Assembly (NCBI RefSeq): GCF_001642085.1
Contig: NZ_CP014699.1
Coordinates: 186,001-250,000 of the forward strand
Reading direction: 5' to 3'
DNA: 64,000 nucleotides
Source: Streptococcus pantholopis
Lineage (GTDB): Bacteria; Bacillota; Bacilli; Lactobacillales; Streptococcaceae
Both the position numbers and the translations under genes were made by a program. The number at the start of each line of letters is the position of its first letter. The stretch's first letter is position 1. Shown here piece after piece: positions 10,520-59,762 of this stretch. The notes under the pieces were generated by a model, which saw nothing but the letters and a program-made list of their open reading frames with translations, was not told the DNA's origin and did not search any database.

Positions 10520-11273
10520 GAGGGAGGTCTGCGAAATCAGAGATTTCTGGCTTACCGCCAGCCGTAGACGTCTGAAAGACGATTTTAAAAATAGGCCTTA
10601 ATATTTGTTATAGTGCTATGTGCAAGACGCTAGTCGTCTAGTGGCACTTTATTCACTTTTTCAAAGCTTTAAATTGCCTACTAGGATTTGCGGGGGTGGG
10701 ACAAGGAACTTTGTGGTCTGGGGTTCTGTCCCACTCCCTAGTCGTTCTGGCAGGGGTGCGTCTGCGAAATCAGAGATTTCTGGCTTACCGTCATTTTTGC
10801 TTTTGCGTTTTTCACGGGTTTTGTATCTTGGTGAATCAAACACGCCCTAAGAGCTGTGCAAAAAAGACAGGGTTAAGTTGAAAATCGATTTTAAGTTAGC
10901 TAGCCGTAGACGTCTGAAAGCTTTGTCGCCTTAACAGTCGACCGCACCTTTCTAGTCGTCTTGGCAGAGGTGCGCCTACGAAATCAGAGATTTCTGGCTT
11001 ACCGTCATTTTTGCTTTGCTCTTTTGACGGGCTTTGTATCTTGTCAATTGAACACGCCCTAAGAGCTGTGCAAAAAAGATAAAATCTCCTAGAGTCTTAG
11101 CGACTCTTCGTCAATTTTCCTATTTTTGCTTTGCTCTTTTGACGGGCTTTGTATCTTGTCAATTGAACACGCCCTAAGAGCTGTGCAAAAAAGATAAAAT
11201 CTCCTAGAGTCTTAGCGACTCTTCGTCAATTTTCCTATTTTTGCTTTGCTCTTTTGACGGGCTTTGTATCTTG
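10520..11273 (+). repeat. Dispersed modular repeat, cluster 2 (leader of the glycerophosphodiesterase gene)
   Basis: Five parts in one orientation. 10520-10577 is a partial core with the GAAATC/GATTTC hairpin. 10578-10830 is the rare long module with stem GTGGGACA (10696-10703) / TGTCCCAC (10727-10734), ending in TTGTATCTTG. 10831-11043 is a 213 bp long-core unit. 11044-11158 and 11159-11273 are two identical 115 bp short units. Each short unit has GCCC/GGGC, AAGAGC/GCTCTT, GCAAAAA/TTTTTGC and apical AGAGTC/GACTCT complementary pairs. The last unit ends 68 bp before the gene start. The 10342-10519 stretch upstream holds nothing recognisable. Confidence 0.9.
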
Positions 11274-13140: not shown

Positions 13141-14355
13141 ATGAAAACTGTTGAGAAATCATCAAAATTAGAACATGTCGCTTACGATATCCGGGGACCG
13201 GTTTTAGATGAGGCCAACCGCATGATGGCTAATGGTGAACAGATTCTGCGTCTTAATACCGGCAATCCCGCTGAATTTGGTTTTACAGCACCGGATGAAG
13301 TCATTCGTGACCTCATTTTAAATGCCCGCAACAGTGAAGGCTATTCAGACAGCAAAGGGATTTTTTCTGCCCGCAAAGCTATTATGCAGTACTGCCAGAT
13401 TAAGGGATTTCCAAAAGTCGATGTTGATGATATCTATATCGGCAACGGTGTCTCAGAATTAATTACCATGAGTATGCAGGGGCTGCTTGATGATGGCGAT
13501 GAGGTACTGATTCCCATGCCTGATTATCCGCTGTGGACTGCTGCGGTCAGTCTGGCAGGCGGACATGCTGTTCACTATCTTTGTGACGAGAAAGCAGAAT
13601 GGTACCCCGATATTGCTGACATAAAGGCAAAAATAAGCTCTAATACTAAAGCTATCGTTGTTATCAACCCCAATAATCCAACAGGCGCCCTATATCCTAA
13701 GGATATTCTAGAAGAAATTGTTGATATTGCCCGACAGAATGATCTGCTGATTTTTGCCGATGAAATCTATGACCGGCTGGTCATGGACGAACTGCAGCAC
13801 ACAGCTATTGCCAGCCTAGCACCAGATGTCTTTTGTGTTTCGATGAATGGCCTATCGAAGTCTCACCGTATTGCAGGTTTCCGCGTCGGCTGGATGGTCT
13901 TGTCCGGACCGAAAAAACATGTCAAAGACTATATTGAGGGGCTGAACATGCTGGCTAATATGCGTCTGTGCTCCAATGTTTTATCCCAGCAGGTTGTGCA
14001 GACTTCTTTGGGCGGGCATCAGTCAGTAGATGAACTTTTGCTGCCGGGCGGCCGGATTTATGAGCAGCGGAATTTTATCTATCAGGCTATTAACGATATT
14101 CCTGGTCTGTCAGCCGTCAAACCAAAAGCAGGCTTGTATATTTTCCCAAAAATTGATCAAACTATGTACCGCATTGATGATGACGAACAGTTTGTTCTGC
14201 GCCTGCTGCAAAAAGAAAAAGTCATGCTTGTGCATGGCCGCGGCTTTAATTGGAAAGATCCCGACCATTTCCGCATTGTCTATCTGCCGAGAGTAGAAGA
14301 ACTGGCATCCGTTCAAGAAAAAATCTCACGGGTCCTGCACCACTTCCGCCGGTAA
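13141..14355 (+). CDS. Pyridoxal-phosphate aminotransferase, AlaA/AlaT type
   Basis: 404 aa fold-type I aminotransferase. Recognisable parts are LRLNTGNPAEFGF near the N-terminus, IYIGNGVSELITMSMQ for phosphate binding, PDYPLWTA, INPNNPTGALY, FADEIYDRL and the PLP lysine in GLSKSHRIAGFRVGW near residue 239. The overall pattern matches glutamate-pyruvate (alanine) aminotransferases of the AlaA group, which make alanine from pyruvate; the exact amino donor is inferred. ATG after GAGGGAGAAGAAGA. Only 56 bp separate it from the glycerophosphodiesterase. A repeat cluster starts three bases after the stop codon. Confidence 0.9.
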   Translation: MKTVEKSSKLEHVAYDIRGPVLDEANRMMANGEQILRLNTGNPAEFGFTAPDEVIRDLILNARNSEGYSDSKGIFSARKAIMQYCQIKGFPKVDVDDIYIGNGVSELITMSMQGLLDDGDEVLIPMPDYPLWTAAVSLAGGHAVHYLCDEKAEWYPDIADIKAKISSNTKAIVVINPNNPTGALYPKDILEEIVDIARQNDLLIFADEIYDRLVMDELQHTAIASLAPDVFCVSMNGLSKSHRIAGFRVGWMVLSGPKKHVKDYIEGLNMLANMRLCSNVLSQQVVQTSLGGHQSVDELLLPGGRIYEQRNFIYQAINDIPGLSAVKPKAGLYIFPKIDQTMYRIDDDEQFVLRLLQKEKVMLVHGRGFNWKDPDHFRIVYLPRVEELASVQEKISRVLHHFRR

Positions 14356-14358
14356 CAC

Positions 14359-14870
14359 CAAGATACAAAGGCCGTTTAAAAATCCGTATGAAAATAGGGA
14401 AGGACTAGCGATGACCTGCATCACGACGGACTTCATCTTTTTCACTAGGATTTTAGGCTGTGTTCAATTGACAAGATACAAAGGCCGTTTAAAAATCCGT
14501 ATGAAAATGGCGGTAAGCCAGAAATCTTTGATTTCGTAGGCGCACCCCTGCCAGAACGACTAGAAAGGTGCGGTCGACTGTTAAGGCGACAAAGCTTTCA
14601 GATGTTTACGGCTGGCGGTAAGCCAGAAATCTTTGATTTCGTCTGCGCACCCCTGCTAGAACGACTAGGGAGTGGGACAGTACCCCAGACCATAAAGTTC
14701 CTTGTCCCGCCCCCGCAAAGCCTAGTAGGCATTTTAAAGCTTTGAAAAAGCGAATAAAGTGCCACTAGACGACTAGCGTCTTGCACGTAGCACTTTAACA
14801 AATATTAAGGCCTATTTTTAAAATAGTCCTTCAGACGACTACGGCTGACAGATAGTCCGAGAGACTTTTT
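14359..14870 (-). repeat. Dispersed modular repeat, cluster 3 (between the aminotransferase and codY)
   Basis: Read on the minus strand. 14359-14471 is a short unit with AAAATCC/GGATTTT, TGAAAA/TTTTCA and apical GATG/CATC pairs. 14472 to about 14870 is a long unit with two copies of the GAAATC-hairpin core joined to the long module; its stem GTGGGACA (14672-14679) / TGTCCCGC (14703-14710) keeps pairing through one G-U. The AAGATACAAAG end lies three bases after the aminotransferase stop codon. The content mirrors cluster 2, so the two flanking genes sit between inverted copies. The far boundary near 14870 is approximate. Confidence 0.88.
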
Positions 14871-17256: not shown

Positions 17257-17770
17257 CAAGATACAAAGGCCGTCTAAAGCTCACAGCAAAAATGATGGTA
17301 AGCCAGAAATCTGTGATTTCGTAGGCGCACCTCTGCCAGAACGACTAGAAAGGTGCGGTCGACTGTTAAGGCGACAAAGCTTTCAGTCGTTTACGGCTGA
17401 CCAATTTGAAATCAAGTCTAAACTTAACCATATTTTTTGCACAGAGCTTAGGCCGTGTTCAATTAACAAGATACAAAGGCTGTTAAGAACGCAAAGTAAA
17501 AATAGGAAAATTGACGAAGAGTCGCTAAAGACTCTAGGAAATTTTATCTTTTTTACGCAGCGTTTAGGCCGTGTTCAATTCAGTAAGATACAAAGCCCGC
17601 TAAAAGAGTAAAGCAAAAATGACGGTAAGTCCGAAATCTTTGATTTCGCAGACGCACCTCTGCCAAGACGACTAGAAGGGTGCGGTCGGCCGCAGGACGA
17701 CAAAGCCTTCAGACGGCTATGGCTGAAGGTAAGCCAAAAATCTATGATTTCGCAGGCGCTCTCTTGCTAG
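17257..17770 (-). repeat. Dispersed modular repeat, cluster 4 (between lysR and the TraX-like gene)
   Basis: Three units read on the minus strand. 17257-17467 is a 211 bp long-core unit. 17468-17583 is a 116 bp short unit with apical AGAGTC/GACTCT. 17584-17770 is a truncated long-core unit. The TATCTT end of the array lies 12 nt from the TraX-like start codon. The truncated end reaches into the lysR 3' end, where the repeat's CTAG supplies the TAG stop codon of lysR. Confidence 0.9.
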
Positions 17771-20904: not shown

Positions 20905-21721
20905 GCTTTAACGGGCTGCTTTGTATCTTATTGGAACTGAACACGGGCTCAGCTCTGTGCAAAAAATATGGTTAAGTTTAGACTTGATTTCAAATTGGTC
21001 AGCCGTAAACGTCTGAAGGCTTTGTCGCCTTAACAGTCGACCGCACCCTTCTAGTCGTTCTGGCAGAGGTGCGTCTGCGAAATCACAGATTTCGGACTTA
21101 CCGTCTTTTTGCTGAGAGCTTGAACGGGCTTTGTATCTTGTGTAATTGAACACGCCCTAAGAGCTGTGCAAAAAAGATAAAATCTCCTAGAGTCTTAGGG
21201 ACTCTTCGTCAATTTTCCTATTTTTGCTTTGCTCTTTTAACGGGCTTTGTATCTTGTTAATTGAACACGGGCTAAACGCTGTGGGAAAAAGATAGCCTGA
21301 CCTCGAATCTTTCTGGATTCATCAGTCAGTCTCCTATTTTCCTTTTGCGTTTTTCACGGGCTTTGTATCTTGTTAATTGAACACGCCCTAAGAGCTGTGC
21401 AAAAAAGACAGCCCTCCCTTGAGTCTTTAGTGACTCATCGGTCTGGCTTCTATTTTTGCTTTGCTCTTTTAACGGGCTTTGTATCTTGTTAATTGAACAC
21501 GCCCTAAGAGCTGTGCAAAAAAGACAGCCCTCCCTTGAGTCTTTAGTGACTCATCGGTCTGGCTTCTATTTTTGCTTTGCTCTTTTAACGGGCTTTGTAT
21601 CTTGTTGAATTGAACACGGGCTAAACGCTGTGGGAAAAAGATAGCCTGACCTCGAATCTTTCTGGATTCATCGGTCAGTCTCCTATTTTCCTTTTGCGTT
21701 CTTAACGCCCTTTGTATCTTA
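20905..21721 (+). repeat. Dispersed modular repeat, cluster 5 (leader of gatCAB)
   Basis: A partial end (to 20930) and six units: 20931-21140 (210 bp, long core), 21141-21256, 21257-21372, 21373-21488, 21489-21604 and 21605-21721. The five short units are 116-117 bp. Units 4 and 5 are identical; units 3 and 6 are near copies. Stem sets differ: AAGAGC/GCTCTT with GCAAAAA/TTTTTGC and AGAGTC/GACTCT or GAGTC/GACTC, against AAACGC/GCGTTT with GGAAAA/TTTTCC and GAATC/GATTC. The last unit ends 17 nt before the gatC start codon. This is the largest tandem array in the window. Confidence 0.93.
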
Positions 21722-21738
21722 CATTAAAGGAGAAATGA

Positions 21739-22041
21739 ATGAAAATTTCTGAAGAAGAAGTACGTCATGTGGCTAAGCTGTCCAAATTGTCCTTTTCTGA
21801 AGAAGAGACAGCTGAATTTGCAGATACCCTGACAAAAATTGTTGATATGGTAGAGCTGCTAAACGAAGTAGATACAGACGGTATCCCAGTGACAACAACG
21901 ATGGCAGAAAGTAAGACAGTGATGCGTGAAGATGTGGCTCAGAAGGGAGATGACCGGGATGCTCTCTTTAAAAATGTACCGCAGTCTGACAATTACTACA
22001 TTAAAGTGCCGGCTATTCTGGAAGATGGAGGAGATGCTTAA
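21739..22041 (+). CDS. gatC: Asp-tRNA(Asn)/Glu-tRNA(Gln) amidotransferase subunit C
   Basis: 100 aa GatC, the small subunit that wraps around GatA and GatB. GatCAB converts Glu-tRNA(Gln) to Gln-tRNA(Gln) in Firmicutes lacking GlnRS. The pattern [17 protein letters not shown] at the N-terminus and the C-terminal [18 protein letters not shown] is diagnostic. ATG after AAAGGAGAAATGA. The stop codon shares one base with the gatA start. Upstream is an unusual leader of about 890 nt made mostly of the modular repeat. Confidence 0.97.
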
Positions 22042-25280: not shown

Positions 25281-25817
25281 AAAAAAGATATGCTTAAGTT
25301 TAGAATTGATTTCAAATTAGCTAGCCGTAGCCGTCTGAAGGCAGACAAAAATCCTAGCCTCCTAATTCATTGCTTGTAGTATAAACAAGACGCTAGTCGT
25401 CTAGCGGTATTTTAGTCGCTTTTTCAAAGCTTTAAAATGTCTGCTAGGCTTTGCGGGGGCGAGACATCGAACTTTACGGTCTGGGGTTCTGTCTCGCTCC
25501 CTAGTCGTCTTGGCAGAGGTGCGTCTGCGAAATCGCAGATTTCGGACTTACCGTCATTTTTGCTTTGCTCTTTTAACGGGCTTTGTATCTTGTTGAATTG
25601 AATACGCCTAAACGCTGGGGAAAAAGATGTCCGGACTTAGAATCTGGCGATTCGTCAGTCAGTCCCCTATTTTCCTATTGCTCTTTTAACGGGCTTTGTA
25701 TCTTGTTGAATTGAACACGGCCTAAAATCCTAGTGAAAAAGATGCCTGCCTCGTGATGCCAGCATCACTTGTCAGTCCCTATTTTCATACGGATTTTTAT
25801 ACGGCCTTTGTATCTTA
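25281..25817 (+). repeat. Dispersed modular repeat, cluster 6 (leader of the MFS gene)
   Basis: 25281-25592 is a long unit containing the rare long module, with stem GCGAGACA (25459-25466) / TGTCTCGC (25490-25497), a double-sided change relative to cluster 2. 25593-25705 is a short unit with apical GAATC/GATTC. 25706-25817 is a short unit with AAAATCC/GGATTTT, TGAAAA/TTTTCA, GGCC/GGCC and apical GTGATG/CATCAC. The array ends 17 nt before the start codon of the MFS gene. Confidence 0.9.
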
Positions 25818-36280: not shown

Positions 36281-36704
36281 AAGACACAAAGCCCGTTTAA
36301 AACACAAAAGGAAAATGACGGTAAGTCCGAAATCTTTGATTTCGCAGACGCGCCCCTGCCAGAACGACTAGAAGGGTGCTGTCGACCGCTAGGACGATAA
36401 AGCCTTCAGACGTTTACGGCTGACGGTAAGTCCGAAATCTCTGATTTCGCAGACGCACCCCTGCCAGAACGACTAGAAGGGTGCTGTCGACCGCTAGGAC
36501 GATAAAGCCTTCAGACGTTTACGGCTGACGGTAAGTCCGAAATCTTTGATTTCGCAGACGCCTCTCTGCCAGAACGACTAGAAGGGTGCGGTCGACCGCT
36601 AGGACGACAAAGCCTTCAGACGTTTACGGCTGCCTAACTGTGAAATCAGTTCTATATTTGATCATGCTTTTTCCCGCAGCGTTTAGGGCGTGTTCAATTC
36701 ATTA
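36281..36704 (-). repeat. Dispersed modular repeat, cluster 7 (triplicated core)
   Basis: One outer frame read on the minus strand, from AAGACACAAAG near 36281 to GTGTTCAATTC near 36700, enclosing three tandem copies of the long core with a period of exactly 105 bp (starting 36317, 36422 and 36527). Each copy holds the GAAATC/GATTTC hairpin with a variable 3-nt loop. Outer segments GCCC/GGGC and GGAAAA/TTTTCC keep pairing. The remaining 36705-36976 holds a CTGTTT/AAACAG hairpin with six Ts (36710-36735) and otherwise AT-rich sequence before the next gene. Confidence 0.9.
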
Positions 36705-40040: not shown

Positions 40041-40615
40041 GATAAGGCCTTTGTATCTTGTTAATTGAACACGGCCTAAACGCTGCGGGAAAAAGATGGC
40101 CTGACTTAGAATCTGGCGATCCGTCAGTCAGTCCCCTATTTTCCTTTTGCGTTTTTAACGGCCTTTGTATCTTGTTAATTGAACACGGCCTAAACGCTGT
40201 GTAAAAAAGATAGACTTCCCTTGAGTTTTTGATGACTCAGCGGTCAGTCTCCTATTTTTACTTTGCGTTCTAAACGGCCTTTGTATCTTGTTAATTGAAC
40301 ACGGCCTAAACGCTGCGGGAAAAAGATGGCCTGACTTAGAATCTGGCGATCCGTCAGTCAGTCCCCTATTTTCCTTTTGCGTTTTTAACGGCCTTTGTAT
40401 CTTATGAATTGAACACGGGCTAAGCTCTGTGCAAAAAAGACATGGTTAAGTTTAGCATTGATTTCAAGTTAGCTAGCCGTAAACGTCTGAAGGCTTTATC
40501 GTCCTAGCGGTCGACCGCACCCTTCTAGTCGTCTTGGCAGGGGTGCGTCTGCGAAATCAGAGCTTTCGGACTTACGCCATTTTTACTTTGCGTTTTAAAC
40601 GGGCTTTATATCTTG
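40041..40615 (+). repeat. Dispersed modular repeat, cluster 8 (leader of the M20 peptidase)
   Basis: A partial end (to 40060), then units 40061-40174, 40175-40290, 40291-40404 (short, 114-116 bp) and 40405-40615 (long core, 211 bp). Units 1 and 3 are identical except for the final base. Unit 2 has GTAAAAA/TTTTTAC where units 1 and 3 have GGGAAAA/TTTTCC, and all three share GGCC/GGCC and AACGC/GCGTT. In the long unit the second stem is not complementary, so it looks chimeric. The array ends 14 nt before the peptidase start codon. Confidence 0.92.
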
Positions 40616-40629
40616 TGTGAGGAGAGGGA

Positions 40630-42006
40630 ATGATTTTTTCTAGATCTGAAGAACAAGTGGAAAAATTTAGGCAGGATGAGGTTGCTCAGCACTATTTTGA
40701 GGTGCTCAGAACGTTGATTGCCAAGAAATCTATTTTTGCTCAGCAGATTGGTCTGCAGGATGTTGCCGCTTATCTGGGAGAAGTTTTCTCCAGTGTCGGC
40801 GCTGAGGTTACGATTGATGAAACCTACCCTGCACCATTTATTATTGCTGAATTTAAGAGTCCGCGGCCTGATGCTGCCACCATCATTTTTTACAATCATT
40901 ATGATACTGTACCGGCAGATGATGATCAGGTCTGGACGGATGATCCTTTTAAGCTGACTGTTCGCAAAGGCTACATGTACGGCCGGGGTGTAGACGATGA
41001 CAAGGGGCATATCACAGCACGGCTGACGGCAGTCAGAAAATACGTCCGGCAGTTTGGTTCTCTGCCTGTTAATATCATTTTTATGATGGAGGGAGCGGAA
41101 GAGTCTGCTTCAAAAGATTTAGAAAAATACTTGGAAAAATACCGCGACCGCCTGCTGCCAGCCGATCTTTTGATTTGGGAGCAGGGCAGCAAAAATGTTT
41201 TGGGGCAGCTGGAAATCACTGGCGGCAACAAAGGTATTGTGACCTTTGACTTATCAGTGACCAGTGCTGAAGTGGATATTCATTCTAGGTACGGAGCTGT
41301 CCTTGAGTCGTCTGCTTGGTACTTGCTGCGGGCCATTTCCAGTATGCGGGATAACGACGGCCGGATTCTTATCGAAGGTCTGTATGACCATGTGCTTGAG
41401 CCCAGTGAACGAGAGTTGGACTTGGTTGATCGCTATGCTATTGAAAACAGTGAAGATCTGCGCAAGCTGTACGGTTTGCGTCTCCCTGCTTTACAGCCGG
41501 AACGGCGGGCGTTCTTAAAGACCTACTATTTTGAACCATCACTCAGCATTGAGGGCTTGTCATCCGGTTATCAGGGGCAGGGGGTCAAAACCATACTGCC
41601 AGCAGAGGCCAGCGCAAAAATGGAGATACGGCTGGTTCCGGGCTTATCTCCTAAACTGGTTTTTGATTTACTGCAGAAACATTTATGGCGGCATGGTTTT
41701 GATCGTGTCAAATTGACTTATACGCTTGGGGAAGAAAGTTACCGCAGTGATATGAGCCATCCGGCTGTTCTAAAGGTTATTGACTTAGCCAAGGGGTTGT
41801 ATAAAGAAGGCGTTTCTATCCTGCCAACGACTGCCGGAACAGGGCCTATGCATACTGTATATGATATTTTGGCTCTTCCTATGCTGGCTTTTGGCATCGG
41901 TAATGCAAACAGCCGCGATCACGGCGGTGATGAAAATGTTGCTATCGCTGATTATTATACCCATATTGAATTAATTGAGGAGCTGATTAAGACTTATGAG
42001 CCATGA
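40630..42006 (+). CDS. M20 family metallopeptidase (dipeptidase-like)
   Basis: 458 aa. Metal-site motifs of M20 enzymes are visible: [12 protein letters not shown] with the first His and Asp near residue 100, [10 protein letters not shown] with the bridging Asp near 122, [10 protein letters not shown] with the catalytic Glu-Glu pair near 156, and the late His in [10 protein letters not shown] near 435. The dimerisation insert lies between ([12 protein letters not shown]). It probably releases amino acids from short peptides. ATG after GAGGAGAGGGA. It overlaps metN by 11 bases; an M20 gene between metQ and metN also occurs in other streptococci, suggesting methionine-containing peptides as substrates. 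Confidence 0.9.
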
Positions 42007-51904: not shown

Positions 51905-51996
51905 CTTTTATCCGAATAAGAAAAAACGGATAAGTCCTAAAAGTTCGAAAAAGATGTCCTTTCCTTGTGTTTTGCAACTCATGGACTAGGCTCAGT

Positions 51997-52357
51997 TTTT
52001 TGGCTACTCTTTTAACGGGCTTTGTGGCTTGGTATCTTGTTTGAATTGAACACGCCCTAAACGCTGCGGGAAAAAGACATGGTTAAGTTTAGAATTGATT
52101 TCAAGTTAGCTAGCCGTAAACGTCTGAAAGCTTTGTCGCCTTAACAGTCGACCGCACCTTTCTAGTCGTTCTGGCAGGGGTGCGTCTGCGAAATCAGAGA
52201 TTTCGGACTTACCGTCAGCCGTAGACGTCTGAAGGCTTTGTCGTCCTGCGGCCGACCGCACCCTTCTAGTCGTCTTGGCAGAGGTGCGTCTGCGAAATCG
52301 AAGATTTCGGACTTACCGTCATTTTTGCTTTGCTTTTTTTACGGGCTTTGTATCTTG
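51997..52357 (+). repeat. Dispersed modular repeat, cluster 9 (leader of htpX)
   Basis: A partial end (to 52039) followed by one 318 bp unit, 52040-52357, in which the long core is duplicated. The two GAAATC/GATTTC hairpins have different loops (AGA and GAA). The unit ends 14 nt before the htpX start codon. Just upstream, TTATCCG/CGGATAA (51908-51932) forms a hairpin after lemA without a T-run. Confidence 0.9.
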
Positions 52358-59323: not shown

Positions 59324-59762
59324 CTAAGATACAAAGCCCGTTTAAAGCTCATAGCAAAAATAGGAAAACTGACGAAGAAACTCCGGTTTCTAGGAAGTTT
59401 TATCTTTTTTGCAAAGAGCTTAGGGCGTGTTCAATTAAAACAAGATACAAAACCCGTGAAAAAATCCGTATGAAAATGACGGTAAGTCCGAAATCTTTGA
59501 TTTCGCAGACGCACCTCTGCCAGGACGACTAGAAAGCTGCGGTCGGCTATTAAGACGACAAAGCTTTCAGACGGCTACGGCTAGCTAACTTGAAATCGAT
59601 TCTCAACTTAGCCATCTTTTTCACTAGGATTTGAGGGCGTGTTCAATTACTAAGATACAAAGCCCGTGAAAAACGCAAAAGGAAAATAGGGGACTGACTG
59701 ACGAATCGATAGATTCTAAGTCAGGCCATCTTTTTCCCGCAGCGTTTAGGGCGTGTTCAATT
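59324..59762 (-). repeat. Dispersed modular repeat, cluster 10 (between der and the SNF2 gene)
   Basis: Three units read on the minus strand: 59324-59440 (short, AAGCTC/GAGCTT, GCAAAAA/TTTTTTGC, apical AGAAAC/GTTTCT), 59441-59650 (210 bp, long core, AAATCC/GGATTT and TGAAAA/TTTTCA), and 59651-59762 (short, apical GAATC-GATA-GATTC). The AAGATACAAAG end abuts the der terminator. The other end lies 107 bp before the SNF2 start codon. Confidence 0.92.

Follow-up and report, generated by a model that had tools for sequence, protein, structure and literature searches.

Ahead of gatC in Streptococcus pantholopis, a series of similar units of little more than 100 nt follow one upon another and stop a few nucleotides short of the Shine–Dalgarno (SD) sequence. 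What are these units, how widely do they occur, and does their position beside a translation start mean anything? The starting point was a stretch of 64,000 nt (positions 186,001 to 250,000 of contig NZ_CP014699.1, hereafter the window), in which an earlier note had described tandem units as a probable structured RNA family. Copies of the element were classed by placement: in class I, one or more elements are followed by the SD and the AUG; in class II, the order is GAAAGGA, element, a few nucleotides, AUG; in class III, the element is antisense, with its right end at a stop codon. Bit scores refer to R1, a covariance model of the element.

Repeat units in the window

All units listed in the earlier note are present with the ends that it gave. 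They measure 108 to 113 nt, from AATTGAACAC (or a one-base variant) through to TTTGTATCTT, and the unit joint GGGCTTTGTATCTTGTTAATTGAACACG, allowing up to three mismatches, has 12 matches in the window as against 0 in 100 shuffles. Beyond that list there are seven longer relatives, which carry one to three copies of a 105-bp module in place of the apical part. The layout is modular: between an A half and a C half lie 0 to 3 copies of the 105-bp B module.

The gatC-leader array, on the plus strand, opens with one of the longer relatives, an A-B-C unit with a single B module (20935–21139; 47.9 bits), and continues with five A-C units at 21144–21255 (121.0 bits), 21259–21371 (99.2 bits), 21375–21487 (109.6 bits; fold −41.4 kcal/mol, z −6.3), 21491–21603 (109.6 bits, identical to the unit before it) and 21608–21720 (108.4 bits). 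The right end of the last unit lies 5 nt upstream of the gatC SD, AAAGGAG (21726–21732), and the ATG is at 21739. In the second A-C unit P1 is unpaired, with GGGC on both sides, and the exception that had been described for 21257–21372 is confirmed.

Elsewhere on the plus strand, an A-B-C unit (10834–11042) precedes two identical tandem A-C units (11046–11272, beginning at 11046 and 11161; 120.4 bits each), and two A-C units (25596–25816, comprising 25596–25704 and 25709–25816; 80.9 and 88 bits) stand ahead of an SD and a start codon. Three A-C units (40063–40403; 110.3, 111.6, and 110.3 bits) are followed by an A-B-C unit (40407–40614; 47.7 bits), GAGGAG, and the ATG at 40630; here 40063–40173 and 40293–40403 are identical, and this repeated unit has the apical mismatch GAATC/GATCC, again as previously described. 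A diverged unit (51924–52030; 46.9 bits) heads the 52-kb array, which goes on with an A-B-B-C unit (52044–52356), GGAGGAGG, and an ATG.

On the minus strand, A-C units occur at 14.4, 17.5, 59.3, and 59.7 kb. That at 14360–14469 (85 bits) is antisense, and some 5 nt separate its right end from the point where the ORF 13141–14355 ends. The unit at 17468–17580 (111.1 bits) neighbors an A-B-C unit (17258–17464; 75.7 bits) whose right end is followed by GTGGAGG and a minus-strand gene start. At the far end of the window, the antisense A-C unit 59326–59436 (120.6 bits), an A-B-C unit (59442–59648), and the A-C unit 59652–59762 (113.1 bits) succeed each other, and an A-B-B-B-C unit (36281–36699) is likewise antisense on this strand.

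The B module measures 105 bp (35 codons) at 36.3 kb and 104 bp at 52.1 kb (36316–36632 and 52112–52321); its copies stand head to tail and have internal inverted repeats, and look-alikes occur in loci L117, L132, and L295. At 786–2880, the window also contains two adjacent ORFs that repeat each other at a spacing of 1033 bp and are 71 to 80% alike over 300-nt pieces.

Copy number and distribution

In the 2.24-Mb single-contig genome there are 530 instances of the right end CGNNCTTTGTATCTT with at most one mismatch (2 for the reversed control), a density of about one per 4.2 kb, and 368 of the left end AATTGAACACGNNCT (reversed control, 2). The exact right end is present in 165 of 197 Streptococcus genomes; counts reach 433 in the window's genome, 378 in G130, 170 in G059, and 64 in G021, and most genomes have 0 to 15. 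R1 matches were obtained in at least 96 of 98 Streptococcus genomes (E ≤ 1e-4), up to 39 candidates being scored in each genome. In an order-wide sample of 158 genomes, 35 had matches at E ≤ 1e-6, namely 21 Streptococcus genomes and 14 of one other family. Matches outside Streptococcus are weak (best 1.8e-9) and all fall in that one family of the order; they represent a distant relative or a look-alike. The genomes concerned are G197, G205, G218, G234, and ten more, with up to 21 matches in G205. For orientation, GatC encoded in the window is 87 to 89% identical to that of S. alactolyticus, S. gallolyticus BI02, and S. caballi, and 75% identical to that of S. suis.

Searches against Rfam found nothing in the window, and nothing at the element in 18 class II loci; a search of eight further loci (E ≤ 1) gave a single match, outside the element. 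A known Rfam RNA family was rejected on this ground, nothing at the element lying above a gathering threshold. Positions 950–1049 of locus L135 match the S10-Clostridia ribosomal leader (RF03136) with 33.7 bits, the gathering score being 35.1.

Hairpin structure and covariation

The RNAalifold consensus is a single long hairpin with helices P0 to P5, of which P5 is apical; P0 has the form GA.ACA/TGT.A.TC and P1 the form GNNC/GNNC. The ends are imperfect inverted repeats (GA-ACA..GNNC versus GNNC..TGT-A-TC) that pair as P0/P1. When 38 units were aligned with MAFFT (28 belonging to other species and 10 to the window's genome), double-sided changes were found in 25 of 31 pairs.

Covariation was assessed against an R-scape-like null (not R-scape itself), in which substitutions inferred by parsimony on a FastTree tree are reassigned to random columns. 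Of the 31 pairs, those covarying at E < 0.05 number 18 in the 38-sequence cross-species alignment, 12 among the dnaJ-leader copies (77 distinct), and 11 among copies from the window's genome (96 distinct), with 0 non-helix pairs in each of the three alignments. The dnaJ and window-genome alignments were fitted to R1, whereas the cross-species alignment was not; the dnaJ set comprises the 95 of 135 R1 matches that end at most 12 nt from the dnaJ ATG, 77 of them distinct. The proposal of a structured family with covarying stems is thus borne out for P1 to P5 under this tree-based null. When the dnaJ set was aligned by sequence only and folded with RNAalifold, just 8 pairs were recovered, 2 of them significant, plus 1 non-helix pair, presumably owing to excessive divergence of the stems.

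It is a different matter whether the pairing is maintained at the level of RNA. Both strands fold about equally well (five units). On the dnaJ tree, we inferred approximately 60 double changes from one Watson–Crick pair to another, 24 one-sided changes to G·U, 21 to A·C, and 21 to other mismatches. Over all cells, G·U and A·C number 29 and 39 of 2324 in the dnaJ copies, and 87 and 46 of 2812 in the window's genome, where 43 of the 87 fall in one pair. Constraint on a single RNA strand should favor G·U over A·C, and the near parity means that covariation alone is no proof of selection on RNA. Double changes form runs of up to four adjacent pairs on single branches, and most of those on short branches are single isolated pairs; between nearest neighbors, one-sided changes outnumber double ones. 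Template switching during replication can yield compensatory patterns of this kind, as described in PMC8794818. The earlier note had taken the double-sided substitutions as pointing to selection on an RNA (or single-stranded DNA) fold; given 21 changes to A·C against 24 to G·U, and with template switching possible, they do not prove selection on RNA. Nor does its choice between an RNA fold and a mobile element hold up: the element is an interspersed, tandem, modular repeat, amplified to hundreds of copies, and its pairing is kept all the same.

Placement relative to genes

The evidence that bears on function is the position of the element at SDs and start codons, which the earlier note did not mention. 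In the window's genome, placement was analyzed in 464 kb (the window plus 20 evenly spaced stretches), which contain 106 R1 units in 54 clusters. With genes taken as simple ORF calls, 43 of 51 non-edge clusters are oriented like the gene behind them and 8 are not. An SD and a start codon come next after 40 of 49 outer exact right ends, compared with 8% of random positions; 36 of these 40 lead into an ORF of at least 50 aa, and in 30 there are 3 to 6 nt to the SD core. A test of left ends for a nearby upstream stop codon gave 1 positive among only 8 usable ends.

Within the window, six of nine clusters are in sense ahead of a gene (class I) and three are antisense (14.4, 36.3, and 59.3–59.8 kb). 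In none of the sense clusters, including gatC, does the element lie between SD and AUG; both stand together behind it. The copies in the window are not split ribosome-binding sites. A class I hairpin just upstream of an intact SD can presumably be tolerated there.

In other species, 102 R1 matches were classified, the counts referring to matches, many of which are orthologous copies of one site. Fourteen are class II (AUG at most 8 nt from the right end, SD before the left end), 7 class I, 11 tandem, and 31 class III (antisense, right end at most 15 nt from a stop codon); 1 has an AUG without an SD, and 38 are placed otherwise. Class III copies occupy the gap between rpsH and rplF, by our reading of the ORFs, in L116, L120, L122, L124, and L131. 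Further antisense copies, in L138 and in L119, L121, and L123, have their right end a few nucleotides behind a stop codon on the opposite strand. Among antisense copies the same operon gap is occupied in several species, with the stems rewritten.

The translation start of dnaJ

Class II is best documented at dnaJ, which was found in 118 of 118 genomes searched and provided a set of 110 leaders. In 98 of these there is no SD core near the AUG, only a distal GAAAGGA with the hairpin in between; 7 have a proximal SD and 5 have neither. An SD core within 20 nt of the AUG is thus seen in 7 of 110 dnaJ leaders as against 857 of 1084 background ORFs (at least 150 aa, in 80 other loci). The seven proximal SDs have a spacer of 7 to 8 nt, and these leaders have no R1 match, whereas 95 of the 97 distal leaders searched have an R1 match ending at the AUG. 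In L262 and L264 the SD is distal, yet there is no R1 match at the AUG. Among the five unclassed leaders, L202 is masked, L184 and L215 have other upstream sequence, and L261 and L263 have no R1 match and a weak AAGG only.

The gap from SD core to AUG has a median of 125 nt (range, 87–180) and measures 107 to 133 nt in 89 of 97 leaders. Folded alone, it leaves a median of 8 nt. Exactly 8 nt are unpaired in 42 of 85 distinct gaps (49%; shuffles, 4.9%), and a single stem with 7 to 11 nt left is predicted for 61 of the 85 (72%; shuffles, 10%); 24 leave at least 12 nt. Shortened class II gaps of 70 to 94 nt, in L273 (dnaJ), L316, L326, and L302, are still predicted to close.

Two other readings of the distal SD layout were considered and rejected. 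One is that the distal SD generally starts an upstream ORF: a start codon lies 4 to 12 nt behind it in 32 of 85 distinct leaders and is missing there in 53, so that a short upstream ORF is possible in the 32. The other is that a weak SD (GGT in CTTGGTATCTT) lies within the right end of the element; many class II copies carry CTTA or CTTT instead.

Class II at other genes

The pattern CTTNGTATCTT-N2-6-ATG occurs in 56 of 59 genomes, with 227 matches as against 19 for the reversed pattern. Among 30 loci listed for it, 19 have ORFs of at least 200 aa, and all 19 are without a near SD and with a distal one; the other 11 have ORFs of at most 48 aa and were not counted. Eleven of the 19 ORFs are dnaJ, and the rest are deoD, dTDP-glucose 4,6-dehydratase (rfbB), purD, parC, prmA, carB, and argB, parC having been identified by NCBIfam in L294 (L310 starts with the same residues). 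R1 matches at the non-dnaJ genes of this pattern score from 109 down to 23 bits. At 20 further places, which we picked ourselves, 18 have a distal core, GAAAGG in 16 of these, and folding leaves 7 to 19 nt (median, 15) at the 18; one also has a core 18 nt away. The class II layout was also seen at dnaK, in L028 and L045.

At gatC, class II gaps of 111, 44, and 37 nt (L014, L013, and L042) fold to 18, 18, and 14 nt, and sister species without the element have, for example, GGAGAAATACAATG (L016). The copies in L014 and L013 keep a GGAG core ahead of AAAGGA, whereas that in L042 does not; the retention of GGAG beside AAAGGA in two of three copies suggests that AAAGGA arrived with the element. Internally deleted forms, reduced to SD and closing stem, are rare. 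A single strict pattern run on 284 genomes yielded 2 matches, of which the S. caballi gatC sequence (L013) is the 1 clear case and the other is an ordinary full-length copy; the S. sobrinus gatC form (L042) falls outside that pattern. A comparison of gatC sisters and G130 reveals presence and absence of the element with no clear duplication; G130 lacks the element at gatC but differs over several kb. No clean empty site with a target duplication was found, the junction between L061 and L052 being ambiguous.

Longer class II leaders (L171, L188, L296, L315, and others) have an arm, GTGTTC or GGTTCAGTT, beside the distal SD. This arm is complementary to the left end (GAACAC, AACTGAACC), which would have two possible partners, a possible switch.

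Folding in sequence context

Class II leaders were also folded with flanks of 25 nt upstream and 35 nt downstream, and sampled structures were compared with those of 150 ordinary genes. The SD was free at a frequency of 17% in class II leaders and 30% in ordinary genes, and SD and AUG were both free at 9% versus 13%, the test being poor for ordinary genes too. SD and AUG stood 4 to 12 nt apart in one loop at a frequency of 1% with flanks (0% when both had to be free) and 11% when the SD-to-AUG segment was folded without flanks. Pairings with the flanks, and between the SD and the right end, compete with the bridging fold. In addition, P0 is weak, and the 8-nt spacing depends on it; P1 to P5 alone leave approximately 20 nt. 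What speaks for a bridge is where the element lies, how SD and AUG are spaced, and how far this is conserved; thermodynamics in context does not.

Interpretation

We favor, with reasonable confidence, the view that the units are copies of a BOX-type repeat that is genus-wide in Streptococcus and probably mobile, and that the class II hairpin would bridge SD and AUG. A bolder version, to which we would give somewhat less than an even chance, is that of a genus-wide transposable hairpin with its own SD at one edge, which on insertion between any native SD and its AUG would restore a working translation start by folding; dnaJ and dozens of further genes in streptococci would by now be translated across it. 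The repeat probably spreads as a non-autonomous mobile element and is predicted to form a hairpin within the leader of the gene that follows. In class II, by analogy with genes 25 and 38 of phage T4, the hairpin would be looped out, bringing an SD that is mostly 107 to 133 nt off to within some 8 to 20 nt of the AUG. This SD may have travelled with the element. We read class II as a probably mobile element that has turned into a split ribosome-binding site. Terminal stems are kept equally well in class I and class II, which means that bridging alone does not explain their conservation.

A rival reading is a purely parasitic BOX-type MITE, in which the hairpin serves transposition (single-stranded DNA or transposase recognition) and lies close to SDs and stop codons because short operon gaps are chosen as targets, without a translational role. 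Such an element would account for hundreds of copies, tandem arrays, and identical neighbors, for two strands that fold alike, for A·C being about as frequent as G·U among one-sided changes, and for antisense copies (31 of 102 matches); Croucher 2011 (PMC3049150) makes the case that repeats of the pneumococcus, BOX among them, are parasitic. It accounts poorly for the persistence of distal SD, element, and close AUG in 98 of 110 dnaJ leaders while the stems change yet remain paired, for the lack of the element in the seven dnaJ leaders with a proximal SD, and for the failure to find a target duplication, no parent element having come to light either. We regard it as unlikely, though deserving of serious attention. 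The compensatory changes themselves might arise when replication switches templates within a hairpin of DNA (quasi-palindrome correction), in which case the covariation would be mutational. To this reading, which is compatible with the others and to which we assign a small probability, belong the roughly 60 simultaneous Watson–Crick to Watson–Crick changes against 24 to G·U and 21 to A·C, and the up to four adjacent pairs changed on single branches, the mechanism being described in PMC8794818; the mostly isolated single pairs among double changes on short branches and the excess of one-sided changes between nearest neighbors run counter to it, and it leaves the placement unexplained.

A switchable leader would make the element a repressor or regulator of translation, for example of heat-shock genes, either through pairing of the right end (UAUCUU) with the distal SD (AAGG) or through pairing of the left end with the upstream arm (GTGTTC..GAACAC). 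Pairing with the SD is predicted in some folds, the extra arm occurs in longer dnaJ, prmA, and deoD variants, and dnaK and dnaJ are both targets; the SD pairing, however, is about 4 bp and inconsistent, and the targets are otherwise unrelated (parC, purD, gatC), which leaves this idea a slim chance. An independent small RNA some 115 nt long, to which length and stable fold would be suited, is hardly credible in view of the position of the element against SDs, start codons, and stop codons.

Should the predicted bridging in class II be true, a repeat thought to be parasitic would provide the site at which dnaJ translation begins across most of a genus, and many natural cases of initiation at an SD, hairpin, and AUG would be added beyond phage T4. 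It would explain why class II helices must stay paired, and it would matter for the prediction of start sites. The same gene with and without the hairpin, and stems repeatedly rewritten, form a natural series for testing the passage of ribosomes over structure.

Comparison with known systems

The earlier note knew of no described family with this sequence, a statement that does not stand, since the BOX-type A-C elements of S. suis have the same layout (Croucher 2011). As described in PMC3049150, their A and C modules are of about 50 nt each with B modules between, A1C1 corresponds to RepSU1, and the smallest elements are of about 100 nt; BOX repeats are said there to be strongly folded, and such repeats to be likely parasitic. 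The present element resembles RepSU1 in its minimal unit of two halves of about 50 nt (here 108–113 nt in all) and the S. suis BOX-type in its variable number of B modules (here one, two, or three of 105 bp). In the same paper, the S. suis BOX-type is reported for S. suis, and pneumococcal-type BOX for S. pneumoniae and S. mitis. The present element, by comparison, occurs in almost every Streptococcus genome that was sampled and reaches about 500 copies in a single one; neither this spread nor the tandem A-C arrays, the tested covariation, the close SD/AUG placement, or the class II layout figures in the passages on BOX-type elements of that paper. The match to the S. suis BOX-type is one of layout. 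Of two S. suis loci, R1 matched one (L082, 69.3 bits; not L068).

Pneumococcal BOX has the ends TACTC..GAGTA, a motif present at 14.8 kb of L087. Despite this pneumococcal-type BOX, R1 found no match on L087 at E ≤ 0.05; with ends that differ as well, identity with pneumococcal BOX by sequence was rejected. The boxA-boxB-boxC plan is shared, and the right part of BOX, TTCCTAGTTTGCTC, resembles TTCCTATTTTTGC of the present element. ERIC, REP/BIME, and Correia repeats are palindromic and found in transcripts, and have other sequences, hosts, and placement. They are also named in PMC3049150 and are alike in being short intergenic repeats. Pneumococcal BOX is said to raise expression of the downstream gene (Croucher 2011, citing others).

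The class II layout was not reported among the literature matches listed for element ends, RepSU1, BOX mobilization, SD–hairpin spacing, template switching, and dnaJ, most subscription papers being outside that scope, and passages that deal with BOX and with leaderless genes in PMC6212727, a paper on pneumococcal annotation, do not mention it. The closest parallel is found in T4 genes 25 and 38, where, according to PMC3014915, an intervening hairpin lowers the distance from SD to AUG (27 to 11 nt and 22 to 5 nt), and mutations that destabilize it reduce initiation. As in these split sites, the class II SD is too far from the AUG and no other SD is nearby (one of the 20 picked places also has a core 18 nt away), and T4-type bridging is predicted to bring the SD to a working distance when the gaps are folded alone, though not with flanks. 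The T4 cases are single phage genes with short hairpins, whereas here a repeated element of about 110 nt stands at many chromosomal genes and the bridging is predicted. The kind of repeat, BOX-type, is known; its extent, the tested covariation and, above all, its placement at SDs and start codons appear to be new, being absent from the literature matches listed.
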